Part shown: positions 1 to 60,774 of the stretch, one piece after another
Numbering within the stretch: the first letter of the stretch is position 1
Layout of the letters: each line of letters opens with the position of its first letter
Source: Bacteroidales bacterium
GTDB lineage: Bacteria; Bacteroidota; Bacteroidia; Bacteroidales; P3
Assembly (NCBI GenBank): GCA_017479385.1
Contig: JAFVCE010000013.1
Coordinates: 1 to 64,000, forward strand
Length of the DNA: 64,000 nt
Direction of reading: 5' to 3'
The notes under the pieces: model-generated
Seen by the model: the letters and a program-made list of their open reading frames with translations, nothing else
What the model was told of the DNA's origin: nothing
Databases searched by the model: none
Program-made: the position numbers and the translations under genes

Positions 1-87
1 AGGCAATCGAAGCTGAGGGTGACCGACAATCCACAGGCCGCCCACACGCCTCGCCGCCGGCAGATACAGTAGGGAGGGGTTAAGGAG

Positions 88-132
88 GGGTTAAGGTCGT
101 ATTAACATCGAAGAATGAACAAGTTTTCAACA
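88..132 (-). repeat. Dispersed repeat copy R1 (variant end)
   Basis: These 45 bases are identical to 49579-49623. They contain the repeat core TTAAGGTCGTATT (reverse orientation relative to the copies at 15.6, 24.3 and 39.8 kb) followed by ATGAACAAGTTTTCAACA. GGGAGGGGTTAAGGAGGGG at 73-90 extends the match to the other family members. Bases 1-243 hold no gene I can support. The open frame from the ATG at 115 runs into the antisense of the next gene and has no recognisable protein features; it probably exists only because this repeat end carries an ATG. A small stem CCCGAG/CTCGGG lies at 151-167. Confidence 0.8.
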
Positions 133-243
133 GCCCGAAGCACTCCGCACCCCGAGGGCTACTCGGGCACGATTGCTCCTATTCGGCATATTAGTCCCAA
201 GCCGGCCAATAGCTCTAACGAGTATCAAGTTGCGATTTTCAGT

Positions 244-15329: not shown

Positions 15330-15570
15330 GGTAGGGTAGAGTGTGCGCAAGGAGGCGCCAAGTTACGGTCGAAGAGGCGTCGAGAAGGTGCCAAGTTGCA
15401 GTCGTGAATGCGTTGGGTTGCCACGCCATTGAGTTCGTATTGGCCTGCAGGTGGCTTCTGGCCAGCCAGGGGTTAGAGCCCCCCCCTGGCATGGGGTTTG
15501 CAACGACTGCGCAAGGCCTCAAACTGGCCTTACGGAGGGTTCTGCGTCGGGACGGCGAGGCGCCAAAACT

Positions 15571-15670
15571 GGCCAAAAATCGAGGGCTAACTGCCTCAGT
15601 ATCAAGCCTTGTTCGACCTCAATACGACCCTAACCCCTCTTTAATACCTCCTCAATACTGTGAATCAAGA
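15571..15670 (+). repeat. Dispersed repeat copy R2
   Basis: This near full-length copy starts GGCCAAAAATCGAGG, continues CTCAGTATCAAG and TTGTTCGACCTCAATACGACC, then TAACCCCTCTTTAA. It ends 3 bases before the HPF stop codon, on the 3' side of the gene. Confidence 0.85.
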
Positions 15671-15672
15671 CG

Positions 15673-15966
15673 TTAGCGGTTGCGCTCTTTGAACTTTTCG
15701 ACCTGCACTTTCATCGCGTCGACACACTCGGCAACGGCCTGCTCGAAGCTGTCGGCCTGCTTGGCAATGAAGAGGGTTTGGCCGGGCATGGCGAGCGAGA
15801 TTTCGGCTATCTTGTTGTTTGTGCTTTCGGGTTTCTCTACCTTGAGGGTGACCTCGCAGGCGGTGGCCGATTCGGCTATGCGGTCGAGTTTGGCAACTTT
15901 GTCGGCGATGAATTTTTCGAGTTTTTCGTCGGCTTTGAATTTCACTGCGTTGATGGTTGTTTTCAT
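15673..15966 (-). CDS. hpf: Ribosome hibernation promoting factor (HPF/YfiA family)
   Basis: This 97-residue short-form HPF binds the small ribosomal subunit and promotes ribosome inactivation in stationary phase. The start MKTTINAVKFKADEKLEKFI and the beta-alpha-beta pattern with EVTLKVEKPES and EISLAMPGQTLFIAKQADSFEQAV are characteristic. It lies 3 bases after the recombinase gene, so the two are cotranscribed; this pairing is common in Bacteroidota. Confidence 0.9.
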   Translation of the reverse strand: MKTTINAVKFKADEKLEKFIADKVAKLDRIAESATACEVTLKVEKPESTNNKIAEISLAMPGQTLFIAKQADSFEQAVAECVDAMKVQVEKFKERNR

Positions 15967-24209: not shown

Positions 24210-24265
24210 GCGCTTTGTGGCCTCTTATCATCGCTCCAACAATGGGTTTGGGAGGGGTGGAAATC

Positions 24266-24364
24266 GGCCAAAAATCGATGTCTAAGTGGCTCAGTATCAA
24301 GTGTTGTTCGACCTCAATACGACCTTAACCCCTCTTTAACCCCTCCTCAACCCTGAATATCAGG
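24266..24364 (+). repeat. Dispersed repeat copy R3 (near full length)
   Basis: The copy begins GGCCAAAAATCGATG, then CTAAGTGGCTCAGTATCAAG, TGTTGTTCGACCTCAATACG, ACCTTAACCCCTCTTTAACC and CCTCCTCAACCCTGAATATC. The last 13 bases form a small hairpin CCTGA-ATA-TCAGG (24352-24364), also present in R4. It lies in the convergent gap between the ECF operon and purD. Confidence 0.88.
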
Positions 24365-24383
24365 CTCTTGCAGAGAGGGTATG

Positions 24384-32642: not shown

Positions 32643-32703
32643 CACAAAAAATTTCAAATATGCGGTGTGTGCCGAAAAAACTTTTCTACGCATCGCGCAA
32701 CGG

Positions 32704-32802
32704 CCTGATTTTCAGGGTTGAAGTCGTGTTAAGGAGGGGTTAGGGTCGTATTGAGGTCGAACAAGCCTTGATACAGAGCTACTTACGCCTCGATTTTTGG
32801 CC
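32704..32802 (-). repeat. Dispersed repeat copy R4 (near full length, reverse)
   Basis: Read on the minus strand it starts GGCCAAAAATCGAGG, then CTGTATCAAGGCTTG, TTCGACCTCAATACG and CCCTAACCCCTCCTTAA. It ends in the same small hairpin CCTGA-AAA-TCAGG (32704-32716) as R3. The gap 32803-32900 holds only several GGCCGAT-like words and no gene. Confidence 0.88.
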
Positions 32803-32900
32803 GGTTTCTGGCTGATTTTTTACCTGTGTGAGGCCGATTTCAAGCCGATGTTGGGCCGACTGGCGGCCGATGTTGGGGCGGTTGTGGCTGGTGGTTTAAG

Positions 32901-39688: not shown

Positions 39689-39760
39689 TGCTGTTTCTCG
39701 GCGGTTTTGCTTGCTCGTTTGCTTCGGCCAGAGAGGCCCGAACGAGGGGTTCGGTTCGGG

Positions 39761-39844
39761 GGCTAAGTGGTTCAGTATCAAGCGTTGTTCGACCTCAATA
39801 CGACCTTAACCCCTCTTTAACACGACCGCACCGCTGTCAATCAG
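39761..39844 (+). repeat. Dispersed repeat copy R5
   Basis: GGCTAAGTGGTTCAGTATCA continues into AGCGTTGTTCGACCTCAATA, CGACCTTAACCCCTCTTTAA. The 3' end diverges (CACGACCGCACCGCTGTCAATCAG). It lies between tRNA-Ser and the KamC-like gene; the rest of that gap holds no gene I can support. Confidence 0.88.
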
Positions 39845-39907
39845 TTTGTTACGAAAGTGCAAACTAACCCTCTTTTGGGGCTGCTGCGGTTGGGTTTCGA
39901 GGAGTGG

Positions 39908-46357: not shown

Positions 46358-47650
46358 ATGGCAACCGCCATCGAATTCGAAAATATTGGCAAACTCTACC
46401 GCTTGGGGCTCGTCGGCACAGGCACCTTGAGCCACGACCTGAAGCGGTGGTGGACGACCTCAATACGACGTCAACCCGACCCTTACCTGAGGATAGGGGA
46501 GCAGAACGACCGCTCTGTTCGAGGCCAAAGCGACTATGTTTGGGCACTGAAAGATATCGACTTCAAAGTAGAACAGGGCGACGTGGTGGGCATCATCGGT
46601 CGCAACGGGGCCGGCAAAAGTACCCTGCTCAAAATCCTTTCGCGCGTCACAGCTCCCACAACAGGCACCATCCGAGCCCGAGGCCGCATTGGGTCGCTGC
46701 TCGAAGTGGGCACTGGTTTCCACCCCGAGATGACAGGCCGCGAGAACATCTACCTCAACGGCGCCATCCTCGGCATGACCAAAGAAGAGATAACTCGCAA
46801 ACTCGACGAAATAATCGACTTTAGTGGCTGCGAGCGCTACATCGACACCCCTGTCAAGCGCTATTCGAGCGGCATGATGGTGCGTCTCGGCTTTGCTGTA
46901 GCCGCCCACCTCGACCCCGAGATACTGGTGGTCGACGAAGTCTTGGCCGTCGGCGACGCCGAATTCCAAAAAAAAGCCATCGGCAAGATGCAAGACATAA
47001 GCAAAGGCGAAGGCCGCACCGTGCTCTTAGTCAGCCACAATATGGCAAACATTCGAAGCCTCTGTAACAGGTGTGTGGTGCTTGATAAGGGCGTAACAAC
47101 ATTTGTTGGCGATACCGGCGAAGCCGTTGCCTACTACACTCAGACGTTCAACATTGTTAAGTCACAACACGTGGTTGTTACCGACGCAATGCGCGACATG
47201 GGTAGAACTATGGCTGCTAAAATGATTTCTGTCAGCCAAGTGAAAGAAAGTTGCACCTATGCCTCCGACGAGGACATTGTGCTGAGAATCAAGATTGAGT
47301 CGAGCATAAACATTTCGGAATGCAGGGTGAATTGTACGATTGATTCGTCGTCAGATACTCCAATCTGTACAAATTCGTCGGTTAATTTCTTCGATATATC
47401 GGCTGGCGAGACCAAAGAGATAGAATATACAATATTGAACCCTGGCCTTACTTGGGGCAAGTATTCGGTCTCTTTCTCGGTTGGGACAGGCAACATGACC
47501 ACGGGCGAAACCAATTTCGACGTGGTAAGGAACGCAATTTTTTTCGAGATAGACCGCCCATCGGCAACTTCGAACACTGCTTATGCCAAGTGGAACGCCG
47601 ATAGTTGGGGCAATATCTACCTCCACACAAAGCAAAAAATCATCAGTTAG
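46358..47650 (+). CDS. wzt: ABC polysaccharide exporter ATPase (Wzt) with C-terminal carbohydrate-binding-like domain
   Basis: This 430-residue protein has an ATPase domain with GIIGRNGAGKSTLLKILSR (Walker A), RYSSGMMVRLGFAVAAHLDPEILVVDEVL (signature, Walker B) and VSHN (switch His). Residues 250-425 form a Wzt-C-like beta-sandwich that would recognise the finished glycan. A 15-base match to the dispersed repeat core (CGACCTCAATACGAC, 46454-46468) falls in the variable loop before the Walker A (residues about 33-37). GC falls sharply in the C-terminal domain, as expected for a variable specificity module. Confidence 0.92.
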   Translation: MATAIEFENIGKLYRLGLVGTGTLSHDLKRWWTTSIRRQPDPYLRIGEQNDRSVRGQSDYVWALKDIDFKVEQGDVVGIIGRNGAGKSTLLKILSRVTAPTTGTIRARGRIGSLLEVGTGFHPEMTGRENIYLNGAILGMTKEEITRKLDEIIDFSGCERYIDTPVKRYSSGMMVRLGFAVAAHLDPEILVVDEVLAVGDAEFQKKAIGKMQDISKGEGRTVLLVSHNMANIRSLCNRCVVLDKGVTTFVGDTGEAVAYYTQTFNIVKSQHVVVTDAMRDMGRTMAAKMISVSQVKESCTYASDEDIVLRIKIESSINISECRVNCTIDSSSDTPICTNSSVNFFDISAGETKEIEYTILNPGLTWGKYSVSFSVGTGNMTTGETNFDVVRNAIFFEIDRPSATSNTAYAKWNADSWGNIYLHTKQKIIS

Positions 47651-47652
47651 GC

Positions 47653-48561
47653 ATGGAATATGTGTCTATAGCAAAGCTTGCCGAGATAATCAGGCGCAAC
47701 ATAAGTCGCGTTCCACGAACTACCGACCTTGTGGTTGGCGTACCCCGTAGTGGGATGATTCCTGCTGCCATCATTGCGCTCAGCCTCAACCTAAGGTTCA
47801 CCGACCTCGACTCGTTCGTTGAAGGGCATATCTATGGAGCAGGGCATAGCAGTGAATCAATTCGGCATAATGACTACAGAAACATACTCGTTGTTGACGA
47901 CAGTATTGCCACTGGCCGTTCTATGGATGAGGTAAAAGAACGCCTCAAACCGTTTGAGGGGGAATATAATATTACCTATGCCGCAATACTGGCCTCCGAT
48001 GTAGACCATCCGCAAATCGATTTTTACATGGAAGTGATTCCTCATCCACGCTTTTTCGAGTGGAATATCTGGAGAAACCACGTCATGCACTCTACAATGG
48101 TAGATATTGATGGCGTGTTGTGCGAAGACCCAGAAATTGACGATGACGGCAAAGAGTACATCAATTTCCTCAACACTGCAGCTCCAAAATATATACCACA
48201 TCTAAAAGTCGACACCATAATTAGTTGCAGGTTAGAGAAATACCGTCAACCGACAGTCAATTGGCTCTCGGCCAACAAGGTTGAATATAACAACCTTGTT
48301 CTACTTGATTTGCCCGATAAGGCTTCTCGCATAAAATGGGGTAATCATGGCCAGTGGAAGGCTTCTCACTACGCTAATAGCGATGCAACACTGTTTATCG
48401 AGAGCTCGGCGCGGCAAGCCGAGATTATTGCGCGGCTTTCCTACAAGCCGGTGTTCTGTATAGAGACCAACCAACTGCTACATACCCTCCCGCAGCCGTC
48501 TCTAATCAAGAGGGCTAAGCGCAGAGCAAAGAATATTATGAGCGCCCTATGCAATATGTAG
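47653..48561 (+). CDS. Phosphoribosyltransferase-HAD fusion protein
   Basis: This 302-residue protein has an N-terminal type I phosphoribosyltransferase domain with VVGVPRSGMIPA and the PRPP loop ILVVDDSIATGRSM. From about 150 a HAD-like domain begins MVDIDGVLCEDP (DxDG motif I) and continues VDTIISCRLEKYR (motif II-like). The start at 47653 lies 2 bases after wzt. It is AT-richer than its neighbours and probably imported with the end of wzt. It may make or process a ribose-phosphate-derived glycan precursor; the substrate is unknown. Confidence 0.75.
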   Translation: MEYVSIAKLAEIIRRNISRVPRTTDLVVGVPRSGMIPAAIIALSLNLRFTDLDSFVEGHIYGAGHSSESIRHNDYRNILVVDDSIATGRSMDEVKERLKPFEGEYNITYAAILASDVDHPQIDFYMEVIPHPRFFEWNIWRNHVMHSTMVDIDGVLCEDPEIDDDGKEYINFLNTAAPKYIPHLKVDTIISCRLEKYRQPTVNWLSANKVEYNNLVLLDLPDKASRIKWGNHGQWKASHYANSDATLFIESSARQAEIIARLSYKPVFCIETNQLLHTLPQPSLIKRAKRRAKNIMSALCNM

Positions 48562-48659: not shown

Positions 48660-49529
48660 ATGGCTGATTTGTGTGCAGAAGGGCTCTATGTTGTCACCGC
48701 TCGGGTTTGCGAGCGGCGGCCACTTTTGGGCACGATTGAGGGCAACGAAGAGGCGGCCACAGTCCGGCTCTCGCCCCTCGGTGGCGCGGTCGAGGCCGAA
48801 ATCGAAGCCCTCGGTAGTCTGCACCGCCTCGTTGCGGTGTGCCAACACGTCGTCATGCCCGACCATGTTCACTTCATCCTGCAACTGCTTGGCCGTGTGC
48901 CGCGGTCGTTTTCGGCCGCTGCGGTGGCCGACGCATGGTGCCATCGCTGCAACGAGGCGGCCGGCCTGCCCTCGCCGCTGTTCGACGAAGGGTGCGCCAT
49001 CAGCCCCATCGCTTCCGAAGGGCAGTACCTGCGCCTGGCGCGATATATAGAGGATAACCCCCGCCGACGCATTGTCGAGCAGGCTCATGCCGAGTGGTTC
49101 ACCCTTAGGCGTGGCCTCGAAGTGGGCGGACACACGTTCGACGCCATCGGCAACACAGCCCTCCTCGGCCGCTCCATGATGGCTGTTCGCTGCCACAGCC
49201 GTTGGAGCGACGAGCACTTGGCCGACTACACACGCCGTTGCCTCATCGCGGCGCGGCAGGGTTGGGTGCTGGTCGGGGCTTTCATTTCCGACGCCGAAGC
49301 GGCCATCGGTATCGGCGCCGTCGAAGACGGCGCCGCAATCATCCACCTCGTCCGAGGCGGCCTCGCCAACGGCTACAAACCCACCATCAACGCCTTCTAC
49401 ACCTGTGCCGAGGGCCGTCTGCTCCACCTTTCGCCCTTCGCTCCCGACGAGCCCCGTCGCCTTTCGCGCACCAAGTGCCAAACCCTAAATTCGCTGGCCG
49501 AGCAGCTGGCCGCAACCAACCCCGAATAG
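48660..49529 (+). CDS. RAYT/Y1-transposase-like HUH protein with C-terminal DprA-like extension
   Basis: This 289-residue protein has an N-terminal REP-associated tyrosine transposase-like domain: GLYVVTARVCERRPLLG, then the HUH motif VVMPDHVHFILQLL, and RYIEDNPRRRIVEQ. The segment where RAYTs carry the nucleophilic Tyr reads PLFDEGCAISPIASEGQ and lacks a Tyr, so strand cleavage may be lost or displaced. Residues 185-285 (GWVLVGAFISDAEAAIGIGA, GGLANGYKP, CAEGRLLHLSPF) recall a DprA/SLOG-type Rossmann domain. A dispersed repeat copy starts about 26 bases after the stop. It interrupts the glycan operon. Confidence 0.75.
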   Translation: MADLCAEGLYVVTARVCERRPLLGTIEGNEEAATVRLSPLGGAVEAEIEALGSLHRLVAVCQHVVMPDHVHFILQLLGRVPRSFSAAAVADAWCHRCNEAAGLPSPLFDEGCAISPIASEGQYLRLARYIEDNPRRRIVEQAHAEWFTLRRGLEVGGHTFDAIGNTALLGRSMMAVRCHSRWSDEHLADYTRRCLIAARQGWVLVGAFISDAEAAIGIGAVEDGAAIIHLVRGGLANGYKPTINAFYTCAEGRLLHLSPFAPDEPRRLSRTKCQTLNSLAEQLAATNPE

Positions 49530-49555
49530 GCCCGCAAACCAACCCTCCTCGGCTC

Positions 49556-49623
49556 CCAATTAAAGAGGGGTCAAGGTCGGGTTAAGGTCGTATTAACATC
49601 GAAGAATGAACAAGTTTTCAACA
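49556..49623 (-). repeat. Dispersed repeat copy R6 overlapping a glycosyltransferase start
   Basis: AGAGGGGTCAAGGTC and the 45-base block 49579-49623 identical to 88-132. The block includes the ATG at 49606 and the first six codons (MNKFST) of the next gene. Confidence 0.88.
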
Positions 49624-50505
49624 ACCTCAGGCGCAACCCAACACCCACTCTTCTCGGTCCTCATTGCCAACTACAACAATGGCCGCTACCTGCAGGAGGC
49701 TATCGACAGCGTCCTCTCCCAGACCTACACCAATTGGGAGGTGATAATTGTCGACGACGGCTCCACCGACCATTCGCCAGAAGTCTACGCCCGCTACCAG
49801 TCCGACCCGCGGTTCCACATCTACTACAACGAGCGTAACCGCGGCTGTGGCTACACCAAGCGCCGCTGCGCCGAGCTGGCCAATGGCGACATCTGCGGCT
49901 TCCTCGACGCCGACGACGAGCTCCTTCCCGCCGCCCTAACCCTCCACACTGAGGCCCACTTGGCCAACCCCAAAATAGCCCTTGTCTTCTCTCGCAGTCG
50001 CCATTACGACGAGGAAGGCAATGCCGTTGGCGAGTGCGCACCAATAGTTCTCGAAGATGGTGAGACTATCTTATCTCACAAAGACAAGGCGGCTTGGAAT
50101 TTCTCTTCATACAGCAACGAGTTGTATCACAAAACCGAAGGAATATCGGCAAAATTGCAGGCCGGAGTCGACCAAGATTTATATTTCAAACTCGAGGAAG
50201 TCGGCGAGGTCAAGACCATCGATGCCTTTACCTACAAATATAACCATCGCAACGACAAAGCCATTACAAATCAAACTGTCAAGCTTTGGTACTGGAACAT
50301 GGTTGCGTTGAAAGATGCATACCTCCGTCGAGGTCTGAACCCGGATACAGAGATGTACGAGTACTGGGAGCGTGTTGTCGCAAGCTTAGAAAGCGACGCA
50401 GCCTACCGCAAAGAGTTAGAAATCCGAAACACAACCACCTACCGCCTGGGTCGAGCGTTGATGACTCCAGCGCGGCTTGTCAAAAAACTCTTTTCTCATG
50501 AATGA
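49606..50505 (+). CDS. Glycosyltransferase family 2
   Basis: This 299-residue GT-A enzyme has FSVLIANYNNGRYLQEAIDS, VIIVDDGSTDHSPEV, GCGYTKRRCAELANGDICGF and the nucleotide-sugar motif LDADDELL. The first residues MNKFSTTSGATQH come partly from repeat R6; the canonical fold starts at about residue 16. The C-terminal tail TTYRLGRALMTPARLVKKLF recurs in the next two enzymes. It overlaps the next gene by 8 bases. Confidence 0.92.
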   Translation: MNKFSTTSGATQHPLFSVLIANYNNGRYLQEAIDSVLSQTYTNWEVIIVDDGSTDHSPEVYARYQSDPRFHIYYNERNRGCGYTKRRCAELANGDICGFLDADDELLPAALTLHTEAHLANPKIALVFSRSRHYDEEGNAVGECAPIVLEDGETILSHKDKAAWNFSSYSNELYHKTEGISAKLQAGVDQDLYFKLEEVGEVKTIDAFTYKYNHRNDKAITNQTVKLWYWNMVALKDAYLRRGLNPDTEMYEYWERVVASLESDAAYRKELEIRNTTTYRLGRALMTPARLVKKLFSHE

Positions 50506-51376
50506 ACCATTAGTTTCGGTCGTCATACCGTGCCACAATCATGGCCGCTTTTTGGCACAAGCCATCGATTCGGTCTTTGCTCAAACCTATAGCAACGTCG
50601 AGTGCGTTGTGGTCGACGATGGCTCCGACGATAATACCTGCGAAGTAGCCAATCAATACGCCAGTCGCCCTCACTTCGTATTCATCCATAAGCCCGAAGT
50701 GGGGGGGGTGGCAAAAGCACGCAACAGCGCCATACAGGCCTCGGCTGGTAGCTATATACTGTCACTCGATGCCGACGACTACATACTGCCGACGTTTGTC
50801 GAAAAAGCCATGGGGTGGTTCCTCGCCCACCCAAGCACCAAGTTGGTCTATTCCAAAGTCCAGACTTTTGGCGAATCAGAGGGGCCATTGGGTTTGGACG
50901 AGTACGATTACCGCAAGTTCATCTTCAACAACTGCATACCCGCCACCGCGCTCTTTCGCCGGGAGGACTATGACCAAACACATGGCTACAACCCCAATAT
51001 GCAGCATGGACTCGAGGATTGGGACTTCTTTCTCTCGCTGCTCGAAGAGGGCGACGAGGTTCATTGTATCGACGAGTGTCTATTCTGCTATCGTCAGGTT
51101 TATGGTTCGAGGAACAGTAACATTGTGCTCTTTGAGCGAGATTTATACCGTCAGTTGTATCATAACCACAGCGAGTTGTACGACAAATATTTAGCCACGC
51201 TCGAGGGTGACCGATTACTCTTTGCCGTCTCTCATGCCCCGCTCTACGAGCAGGCGACGCAAGAAAGCCGTCGGCTCAACGATGAGCTAAAAGCCATTCG
51301 CAGCTCGCGGGCCTACCGCTTGGGTAAGGCTCTACTGCGACCCATCAAAGTCTTTAAAGAAAAATGGTATCGATAA
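50498..51376 (+). CDS. Glycosyltransferase family 2
   Basis: This 292-residue GT-A enzyme starts MNEPLVSVVIPCHNHGRFLA, with VVVDDGSDDNT, GGVAKARNSAIQAS and LSLDADDYILPTF, then HGLEDWDFFLSLLEEG in the acceptor region. It contains an in-frame G8 tract (50701-50708). The tail is SRAYRLGKALLRPIKVFKEK. It overlaps the next gene by 13 bases. Confidence 0.92.
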   Translation: MNEPLVSVVIPCHNHGRFLAQAIDSVFAQTYSNVECVVVDDGSDDNTCEVANQYASRPHFVFIHKPEVGGVAKARNSAIQASAGSYILSLDADDYILPTFVEKAMGWFLAHPSTKLVYSKVQTFGESEGPLGLDEYDYRKFIFNNCIPATALFRREDYDQTHGYNPNMQHGLEDWDFFLSLLEEGDEVHCIDECLFCYRQVYGSRNSNIVLFERDLYRQLYHNHSELYDKYLATLEGDRLLFAVSHAPLYEQATQESRRLNDELKAIRSSRAYRLGKALLRPIKVFKEKWYR

Positions 51377-52206
51377 TAGTCTGCTCCCGAACGCTGGACA
51401 TCTCTCCACAGCAGCGCAGCAACATTGCAACCACAGTGGGCTGCGACCACGAAATTGTTGTCATAGACAATTCGCTGGGGCGTTACAGCATTTTCGCGGC
51501 TTACAATGAGGGGGTAAGACGTTCGCAGGGCGACATACTTTGCTTTGTCCACGACGATGTGGAGTTCTGCTCGGCAGGTTGGGGCGAAGCCATAGCTTCG
51601 CTCTTTGGCGACGAAAGTATTGGCCTTATTGGCTTCGGCGGAGCCCACTTCATGCCCAACTCGCCCCTGTATTGGCTCGGTATGCCGTATATCTCAGAGT
51701 TTAATCAGAACCTCGACAATGGTCGGTTGGTCGATTGCTATGAAACGACCTACTTCCACGGCAGCCTGGCCGACGTGGCTGTGGTCGACGGTATGTGCTT
51801 CTTCGTCCCGCGGCGGCTGTTTTCGACCATACGTTTCGACGAGGAATACTACTCTGGTTTCCATGCCTACGATATGGACATCTGTATGCAGGTGCAGCAA
51901 GCGGGCTATCGCGTGTGCGTGAACCGCGAGGTGAAAATCGTTCACCGCTGGTCGGAACAGGCTGCTCCCACCAAGCGAGGAATGAACCTTTTCGAACACA
52001 ACCTGGAACTTTTTTGCCGCAAGTGGCAACCCATGCTCCCCATAGTGAGGGGCATAGAACTGCCCGAACGCACCATTCGCAACCTCAACAACCTGTGTGC
52101 CTTAGCCTACGACGCCACTTTGGCTCGCCGCTCGGCCTCATACCAGCTGGGTAGAACCCTGCTCGCACCAGCCCGATGGTTGAAAAGGGTGGTACGCAAG
52201 GACTGA
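51364..52206 (+). CDS. Glycosyltransferase (GT2-like, PF13712 type)
   Basis: This 280-residue protein starts MVSIIVCSRTLDISPQQRSN, followed by EIVVIDNSLGRYSIFAAYNEG, ILCFVHDDVEFCSAGWGEAI and GFHAYDMDICMQVQQAGYRV. This is the pattern of the PF13712 glycosyltransferase-like family common in capsule loci. The tail SASYQLGRTLLAPARWLKRV matches its neighbours. Confidence 0.87.
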   Translation: MVSIIVCSRTLDISPQQRSNIATTVGCDHEIVVIDNSLGRYSIFAAYNEGVRRSQGDILCFVHDDVEFCSAGWGEAIASLFGDESIGLIGFGGAHFMPNSPLYWLGMPYISEFNQNLDNGRLVDCYETTYFHGSLADVAVVDGMCFFVPRRLFSTIRFDEEYYSGFHAYDMDICMQVQQAGYRVCVNREVKIVHRWSEQAAPTKRGMNLFEHNLELFCRKWQPMLPIVRGIELPERTIRNLNNLCALAYDATLARRSASYQLGRTLLAPARWLKRVVRKD

Positions 52207-56098: not shown

Positions 56099-56163
56099 CG
56101 ATAAGCGCCCCAAAACACGCTGTTCGCCCCCATCATAACAGCGTGATATTCAATGTTGAGGAC

Positions 56164-56222
56164 CTGTTAAAGAGGGGTTAAGGTCGTATTGAGGTCGAAC
56201 AACACTTGATATTCAGCCCTTT
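56164..56222 (-). repeat. Dispersed repeat copy R7
   Basis: Minus-strand reading: CTGAATATCAAGTGTTG, TTCGACCTCAATACG, ACCTTAACCCCTCTTTAAC. It sits in a 230-base gap that splits the acyl operon between the SDR and second KAS III genes; nothing else is seen in the gap. Confidence 0.88.
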
Positions 56223-56328
56223 AGCAGCGCTCGAAAACCCCATTTTTCCAGCCTCCCAAACCCCTCAAATCGATAAACAAAGTCATCGCCTCCGGCACCA
56301 TAACCCATACTCATCAGCCCCCTACCCA

Positions 56329-60409: not shown

Positions 60410-60745
60410 TTGAAACGTCGCTACATATACATCATACTGCTGGCAATTAACCTGCTCTACGCTTCGGTCTCTATCGCCAGTCGCTGGGCGGCCGCTCACC
60501 CTTTCGCCAGCTGGCCCTACCTGGGTGGCTTGGTGGCAGTGGGGTCGGTGCTGACGCTCTACGCCTTGGCGTGGCAGTGGGTGCTGACCAAGGTGCCTAT
60601 GGCAACGGCTTATATGTTCAAAGGTAGCAGCTTGGTGTTTGTTCTCGTTCTGTCGACCCTGCTTTTTGACGAGGGGGTGACGGTGGGCAACATTGCTGGT
60701 GCAGCCCTCATAATCAGTGGGATAGCGATGGCTGCCCGATGTTAA
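60410..60745 (+). CDS. SMR/EamA-type small membrane transporter, first half
   Basis: This 111-residue protein has four membrane helices (YIYIILLAINLLYASVSI; LGGLVAVGSVLTLYALAW; TAYMFKGSSLVFVLVLS; NIAGAALIISGIAMAAR). The only suitable start is TTG at 60410 (LKRRYIYII). Its stop TAA at 60743 lies inside repeat R8. Size and pairing recall ArnE/ArnF, which flip undecaprenyl-phosphate-linked sugars. Confidence 0.75.
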   Translation: MKRRYIYIILLAINLLYASVSIASRWAAAHPFASWPYLGGLVAVGSVLTLYALAWQWVLTKVPMATAYMFKGSSLVFVLVLSTLLFDEGVTVGNIAGAALIISGIAMAARC

Positions 60746-60774
60746 TACGACCTCAATACGACCCTAACCCCTCT
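60737..60774 (+). repeat. Dispersed repeat fragment R8 between the two SMR genes
   Basis: CGATGTTAATACGACC, as in R1/R6 read in reverse, is joined to TCAATACGACCCTAACCCCTCT as in R2-R5. It provides the stop codon of the first SMR gene and ends directly before the ATG of the second. Confidence 0.85.

Follow-up and report, generated by a model that had tools for sequence, protein, structure and literature searches.

A Y1/HUH-DprA-like fusion protein in Bacteroidales polysaccharide operons, probably domesticated and not the mobiliser of the 11-bp repeat array beside it

The window analysed here is a 64,000-nucleotide stretch of contig JAFVCE010000013.1 from a Bacteroidales bacterium (GCA_017479385.1; G000 below), in which an intact open reading frame (ORF) at 48660-49529 (+) encodes a 289-aa protein with a Y1/HUH nuclease-like domain and a predicted C-terminal DprA-like domain. 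A copy of a dispersed 11-bp repeat array lies directly behind this gene, and a first-pass annotation had taken the pair for a Bacteroidales analogue of the REP-associated tyrosine transposases (RAYTs; REP, repetitive extragenic palindrome), with the gene as the spreader of the repeat. It is with sugar-coat operons that the HUH-DprA gene is repeatedly associated, and not with the repeat. We therefore favour, as the probable reading, an operon-embedded and likely domesticated fusion that processes single-stranded DNA (ssDNA) in polysaccharide operons and is not the mobiliser of this array. The genome has some hundreds of 11-bp arrays, most of them intergenic, and the presence of one behind the gene is probably coincidental.

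Proteins of the RAYT/TnpA_REP kind are expected to combine an HUH motif with a tyrosine in a Y---NP arrangement, the latter described in the main text of PMC6006769 as the signature of class 2 TnpA_Y1 proteins. Both were found in the window protein, and M66, P67, H69, H71, Y129, N133 and P134 are invariant in an alignment of 34 sequences. It had been proposed that the usual nucleophilic region lacks a tyrosine; this was rejected because Y129 stands in the Y-x-x-x-NP position in all 34 sequences. Y129 is presumed to correspond to Y115 of E. coli TnpA_REP, whose catalytic mutant is given as Y115F in PMC8266576, an equation made by motif and not by residue-level superposition. The NCBIfam model REP_Tyr_transpos (NF047646) matches the protein with an E value of 3.2e-5 and 23.9 bits, below the cut-off of 80, which no protein exceeded in any of five genomes (0/5); all 34 aligned sequences, the window protein included, match the model with E values up to 0.1. 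With the intact frame and the two histidines, this match bears out the first-pass recognition of a Y1/RAYT-like HUH gene with the motif MPDHVHF. A Pfam search of the protein gave no match even at E 10, PHROGs gave no useful result, and Pfam Y1_Tnp found nothing in the window's own genome at E 0.001. The gene encodes the sole Y1 protein found in that genome; a second copy was sought there and none was seen, so the near-identical multicopy state of IS200/IS605-like elements was not observed.

Of 190 genomes from the family, 54 gave homologues in a single-sequence search and 86 with a profile built from the 34 sequences, many of the latter matches being the Y1 half alone. Named relatives are gut and rumen Bacteroidales, several titled Paludibacteraceae; remoter homologues occur in Muribaculaceae, Prevotella relatives and Kiritimatiellae/Verrucomicrobia, and in Clostridia and others the match is confined to the Y1 half.

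A confident structure model (predicted local distance difference test score, pLDDT, 95) consists of an IS200/RAYT-type Y1 domain, resembling the fold of TnpA_REP, fused to a predicted C-terminal Rossmann domain of the DprA/ShosA kind. These fold relatives were taken from the Foldseek ranking, among the matches listed, and other families are possible. Pfam DNA_processg_A did not match the window protein and reached E 0.059 in one of 12 C-terminal domains; no PADLOC model matched the HUH-DprA protein or three other proteins tested. The protein would nick and rejoin ssDNA through the usual HUH-tyrosine chemistry, and its DprA-like part would bind or guide the single strand. It would be domesticated, at least in part, and not an active transposon, and the gene would be retained as a member of O-antigen- or capsule-type polysaccharide operons.

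Compared with TnpA_REP/RAYT proteins (class 2 TnpA_Y1; PDB 4er8), the window protein has an additional DprA-like domain of ~145 residues and a score well short of the NF047646 cut-off; a GTAA palindrome was not found at its side, and the abundant array beside its gene also occurs without the gene. It differs from IS200/IS605 TnpA (IS608, ISDra2) in having Y---NP rather than Y---Q and in being single-copy, and from DprA and ShosA in having the Rossmann-type part only, fused to an HUH domain and unmatched by PADLOC. TnpA_Y1 subclasses 2.1 and 2.3 resemble it in their long C-terminal extensions and the lack of REPs at their side. However, the main text of PMC6006769 describes those extensions as helix-turn-helix/DnaA-like or subclass-specific, the motifs as NHVH/NHYH and the hosts as mainly Proteobacteria, whereas the window protein has a DprA-like fold, DHVH and DNPRR and occurs mainly in Bacteroidales. 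None of the 12 subclasses treated there is presented as having a DprA-like domain, and the words DprA and Rossmann have no occurrence in that main text. Literature titles and abstract openings, among the matches listed, mentioned neither a Y1-DprA fusion nor Bacteroidales 11-bp arrays. By the descriptions in that text, the fusion is set apart from the described subclasses, the Y1 kind itself being known.

Using the window's three glycosyltransferases as queries, we found a glycosyltransferase-2-like ORF within 1.45 kb of 6 of 55 distinct homologues (G000, G039, G029, G120, G093 and G096; near-duplicates and matches under 150 residues removed), against ~0.7% for random placements (3,000 draws, about a tenth of them on unusably short stretches). 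In all six the strand is shared, and gene ends often overlap or almost touch: counted from the stop codon's first base, the glycosyltransferase that comes next starts at -1, -1, +5, +22, +22 and +79 (the +22 spacing was read directly from the printed bases). Five of the six form a single clade in the tree (100/99), from which G096 is absent; these five therefore reflect one retained association with glycosyltransferases, not six events. The gene order in G039 is Wzt (69% identity), phosphoribosyltransferase (PRTase; 49%), two glycosyltransferases, HUH-DprA (43%) and another glycosyltransferase, and that in G072 is PRTase (44%), a truncated HUH copy (38% over the HUH half) and a glycosyltransferase (45%), with no array at the syntenic junction.

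If the gene had spread the adjoining repeat, repeat copy number would be expected to track the gene and homologues would be expected to be flanked by the repeat. A loose pattern covering the variants of three species gave 333 matches in the window's own genome, 325 in G070 and 78 in G106. In the other 187 genomes it gave 0-2, a range also returned by the reversed control (7 in one genome), and the 85 other gene-bearing genomes likewise have 0-2. In G070 (90% complete) and G106 (79%), searches with the single sequence, the profile and NF047646 all gave no homologue. Any 11-bp array lay within 300 bp of 4 of 59 homologues, compared with 80 of 943 other ORFs (p 0.75; control ORFs without loci chosen for the repeat). 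The window copy is not among the four, its units having diverged too far for the lag-11 test; added by hand, it makes 5 of 60. Spreading of the array by the HUH-DprA gene was thus rejected, since the array thrives in the gene-less G070 and G106 and 11-bp arrays show no excess near homologues. Array positions compared between G000 and G070 (69 reciprocal best hits, sampled parts) showed no significant conservation in 3' gaps (p 0.40); pooling both sides gave p 0.012, a value confounded by the arrays' 3'-end preference and not used.

Arrays of this period are found genus-wide. Across 699 kb from ten genomes there are 29 arrays of primitive period 11, 24 of them outside ORFs of at least 100 aa, next to 39 of period 7, 9 of period 8, 7 of period 9, 2 each of periods 10 and 12 and none of period 13; five shuffles of 20 of 40 stretches gave no period-11 array. 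Densities per 100 kb (threshold 20) are 1.6 in the window's own genome; 5.0 in G041, 0 in G074 (17 kb only), 6.6 in G076, 0 in G105, 3.8 in G099, 10.9 in G039, 8.0 in G120, 6.4 in G091 and 2.0 in G100, all bearing a homologue; and 2.5 in G027, 6.5 in G024, 11.2 in G113, 0 in G122 and 3.8 in G118, without one. The G039, G120, G091 and G100 samples were drawn partly around their homologues. The arrays are dispersed and mostly intergenic, with unit sequences that vary by genome, some being long palindromes; the 80 kb of G105 examined contain 20 arrays of 7-bp period and none of 11 bp. One exact copy of the repeat core, with a GTAA palindrome, occurs in G037 (L101, G037:C34), where the repeat is otherwise absent and no homologue was found, and possibly lies on a stray contig. 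Repeats flanking the homologues in G120, G091 and G100 were considered as REPs and rejected, as by eye they resemble pieces of coding genes. Those in G120 are two glycosyltransferases. In G100 (L188), 111917-112045 and 112772-112900 of contig C6 hold a 128-bp copy of the upstream gene's 3' end, 0.86 kb apart; just upstream of the homologue, it is possibly an insertion scar.

In the window's own genome, the repeat core with up to 3 mismatches has 244 matches (118 + 126; reversed control 0). Long copies consist of a palindrome (GTAA..TG..TGA-n-TCA), 11-bp units (GTTGAGG-AGGG, GTTAAAG-AGGG, GTTAAGG-TCGT, ATTGAGG-TCGA) and a palindrome in inverse orientation with TTAC at its end. Behind the HUH-DprA gene stands the array alone (AATTAAAGAGG / GGTCAAGGTCG / GGTTAAGGTCG / TATTAACATCG). 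A repeat member had been reported directly behind the gene, and this stands, as the array begins ~30 bp past the stop codon in a 76-bp intergenic gap; it is a partial member, however, without the TGA-n-TCA palindromes that flank other copies. The array ends at the glycosyltransferase ATG at 49606, so that the first-pass stretch of 48660-49623 does hold gene and array but runs ~18 bases into the next gene. The left 500 bp of the HUH gene are not repeated within the window, and the right flank is the palindrome-free array alone. No glycosyltransferase frame is listed after the related copy at 74-135. The repeats resemble REPIN/BIME elements and the heptamer direct repeats of Beggiatoaceae (PMC4679880) in their large number of short copies, mostly between genes and in part palindromic, or in their scattered short tandem arrays; they differ in their 11-bp units and in a sequence that varies between species while the period stays constant.

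The palindromes raise the alternative that the protein is a true RAYT acting on GTAA-footed TGA-NNN-TCA palindromes, with palindrome-array-palindrome as a REPIN-like unit spread in this species only. The strict GTAA palindrome STAAVTGNYTGANNNTCAR occurs 41 times in the window's own genome (reversed control 1), 0 times in G070 and once in G106, the two genomes that have arrays and in which no gene was found. With a similar pattern and up to one mismatch, 47 of 55 matches in 834 kb adjoin an array (control 1), compared with one of 3 in 392 kb of G070 (control 1). A looser pattern gave 88 arrays in the 834 kb, 14 of them inside predicted ORFs (crude ORF calls); TGA-n-TCA palindromes lie within 70 bp upstream of 28 and downstream of 26 (3.5 and 3.7 in shuffles), on both sides of 10 and on neither side of 44. 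REPs favour convergent gaps. The arrays do so too, with 34 of 72 intergenic arrays in convergent gaps (background 68 of 321 gaps of at least 60 bp) and 8 of 72 in divergent gaps (78 of 321); in G070 the figures are 21 of 38 (38 of 159 gaps) and 0 (38 of 159). That the protein is the only Y1 protein found in its genome also fits such a role. However, no GTAA palindrome with up to one mismatch lies within 1 kb of the gene, although a full structure-based REP search was not run. GTRG-N14-CYAC pairs in the window are at chance level (4 vs 3.2 expected), one of the four lying 0.6 kb upstream of the gene inside the PRTase gene. In the 5-bp hairpin, covariation was not seen outside TGA/TCA (12 of 16 paired, 12.5 expected), and TGA-n-TCA also precedes arrays in the gene-less G070 (16 of 48 vs 2.7). 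Elsewhere in the genus, gene-bearing genomes contain 0-1 GTAA palindromes; G136 has 7 and G166 has 14. Abundance in a single species amounts to one event. We consider this alternative unlikely, though it survives better than the others.

Table 1 Features of the locus and copies of the 11-bp repeat.
Feature	Position	Strand	Evidence or remark
Y1/HUH nuclease-like protein with C-terminal DprA-like domain, 289 aa	48660..49529	+	ORF, NCBIfam, alignment, model
HUH motif MPDHVH, residues 66-71	48855..48872	+	H69 and H71 invariant, 34/34
Presumed catalytic tyrosine Y129 in RYIEDNPRR	49044..49046	+	invariant with N133 and P134, 34/34
DprA/ShosA-like Rossmann domain (predicted), residues 145-289	49092..49526	+	
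Wzt-type O-antigen ABC transporter ATPase	46358..47650	+	PF00005 and PF14524; 69% identical in G039
PRTase-domain gene directly upstream of HUH-DprA gene	47653..48561	+	PF00156 E 2e-11; homologues in G039 and G072 clusters
Family 2 glycosyltransferase, gene after HUH-DprA	49606..50505	+	PF00535 E 9.5e-32
Family 2 glycosyltransferase	50477..51376	+	PF00535 E 1.3e-30
Family 2-like glycosyltransferase	51364..52206	+	PF13712 E 7.5e-30
Array-only repeat copy, gap before next gene	49560..49606	+	
Array copy	74..135	+	62 bp (93.5%) in common with 49565-49626, including first glycosyltransferase bases
Long repeat copy, array and flanks	15557..15675	-	
Long repeat copy, array and flanks	24252..24371	-	
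Long repeat copy, array and flanks	32696..32808	+	
Long repeat copy, array and flanks	39733..39854	-	
Long repeat copy, array and flanks	56133..56225	+	
Array-only copy at start of predicted reading frame	60737..60774	-	
Example 11-bp arrays elsewhere	L193:10001-10092; L223:14414-14569; L214:11200-11355; G039:C2:24863-24965 (in L175)		

Several observations weigh against an operon-embedded role and a coincidental array. In G072 the gene breaks off behind its HUH half, with the tyrosine and DprA parts outside the frame, and the operon therefore tolerates its loss. In G120, a further homologue (38% identical) lies ~2.5 kb from the closest glycosyltransferase-2-like ORF, and the remaining 49 of the 55 homologues showed no such ORF near. 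Within the cluster, HUH-DprA stands at different places in G000 and G039, as would be expected of a mobile gene, and co-transcription with the neighbours is inferred from spacing. An array stands at the side of two of seven cluster loci: besides G000, the nearest homologue, in G039 (43-44%), has a 100-bp palindromic 11-bp array ~65 bp ahead of its ATG; the 92 kb examined there contain seven such copies. The lag-11 test found no array at the G029, G120, G093, G096 and G072 loci.

Some of these points would also fit a transposase that is decaying or a passenger, carried along by polysaccharide clusters as these are exchanged horizontally and now without a role. The HUH-only copy in G072, stops counted within some other homologue matches, the patchy distribution over genomes and the shifting position in the cluster are consistent with it. 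However, the catalytic residues are invariant in 34 of 34 sequences across long branches, gene ends nearly overlap in several genomes, and the genome has no second copy of the gene. We regard such a passenger as rather improbable.

A PRTase gene adjoins a DprA-like gene at the locus, as in ShosTA; by eye, the C-terminal half of the PRTase gene product (47653-48561) is HAD-like. The least probable alternative is a ShosTA-like defence pair in which the HUH-DprA protein, with its added HUH domain, senses ssDNA as the partner of the PRTase. PADLOC matched the PRTase to ShosT with an E value no better than 0.031, over 38 residues, and did not match the HUH-DprA protein; the PRTase was not found in short stretches of G029, G093 and G096 or in 100 kb of G120; and a PRTase among glycosyltransferases may serve sugar chemistry. 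We suggest very tentatively that HUH-DprA fusions beside a PRTase gene in polysaccharide operons might form a new class that senses or processes incoming or displaced ssDNA, guarding the surface-sugar locus in a ShosTA-like manner or aiding glycosyltransferase exchange by ssDNA recombination.

Because the same array thrives without the gene in relatives, a repeat beside a RAYT-like gene is no evidence that the gene spread it. RAYTs are generally regarded as Y1 transposases that have become domesticated, and the fusion in sugar-coat operons offers a concrete place to ask what role such proteins play in their hosts.
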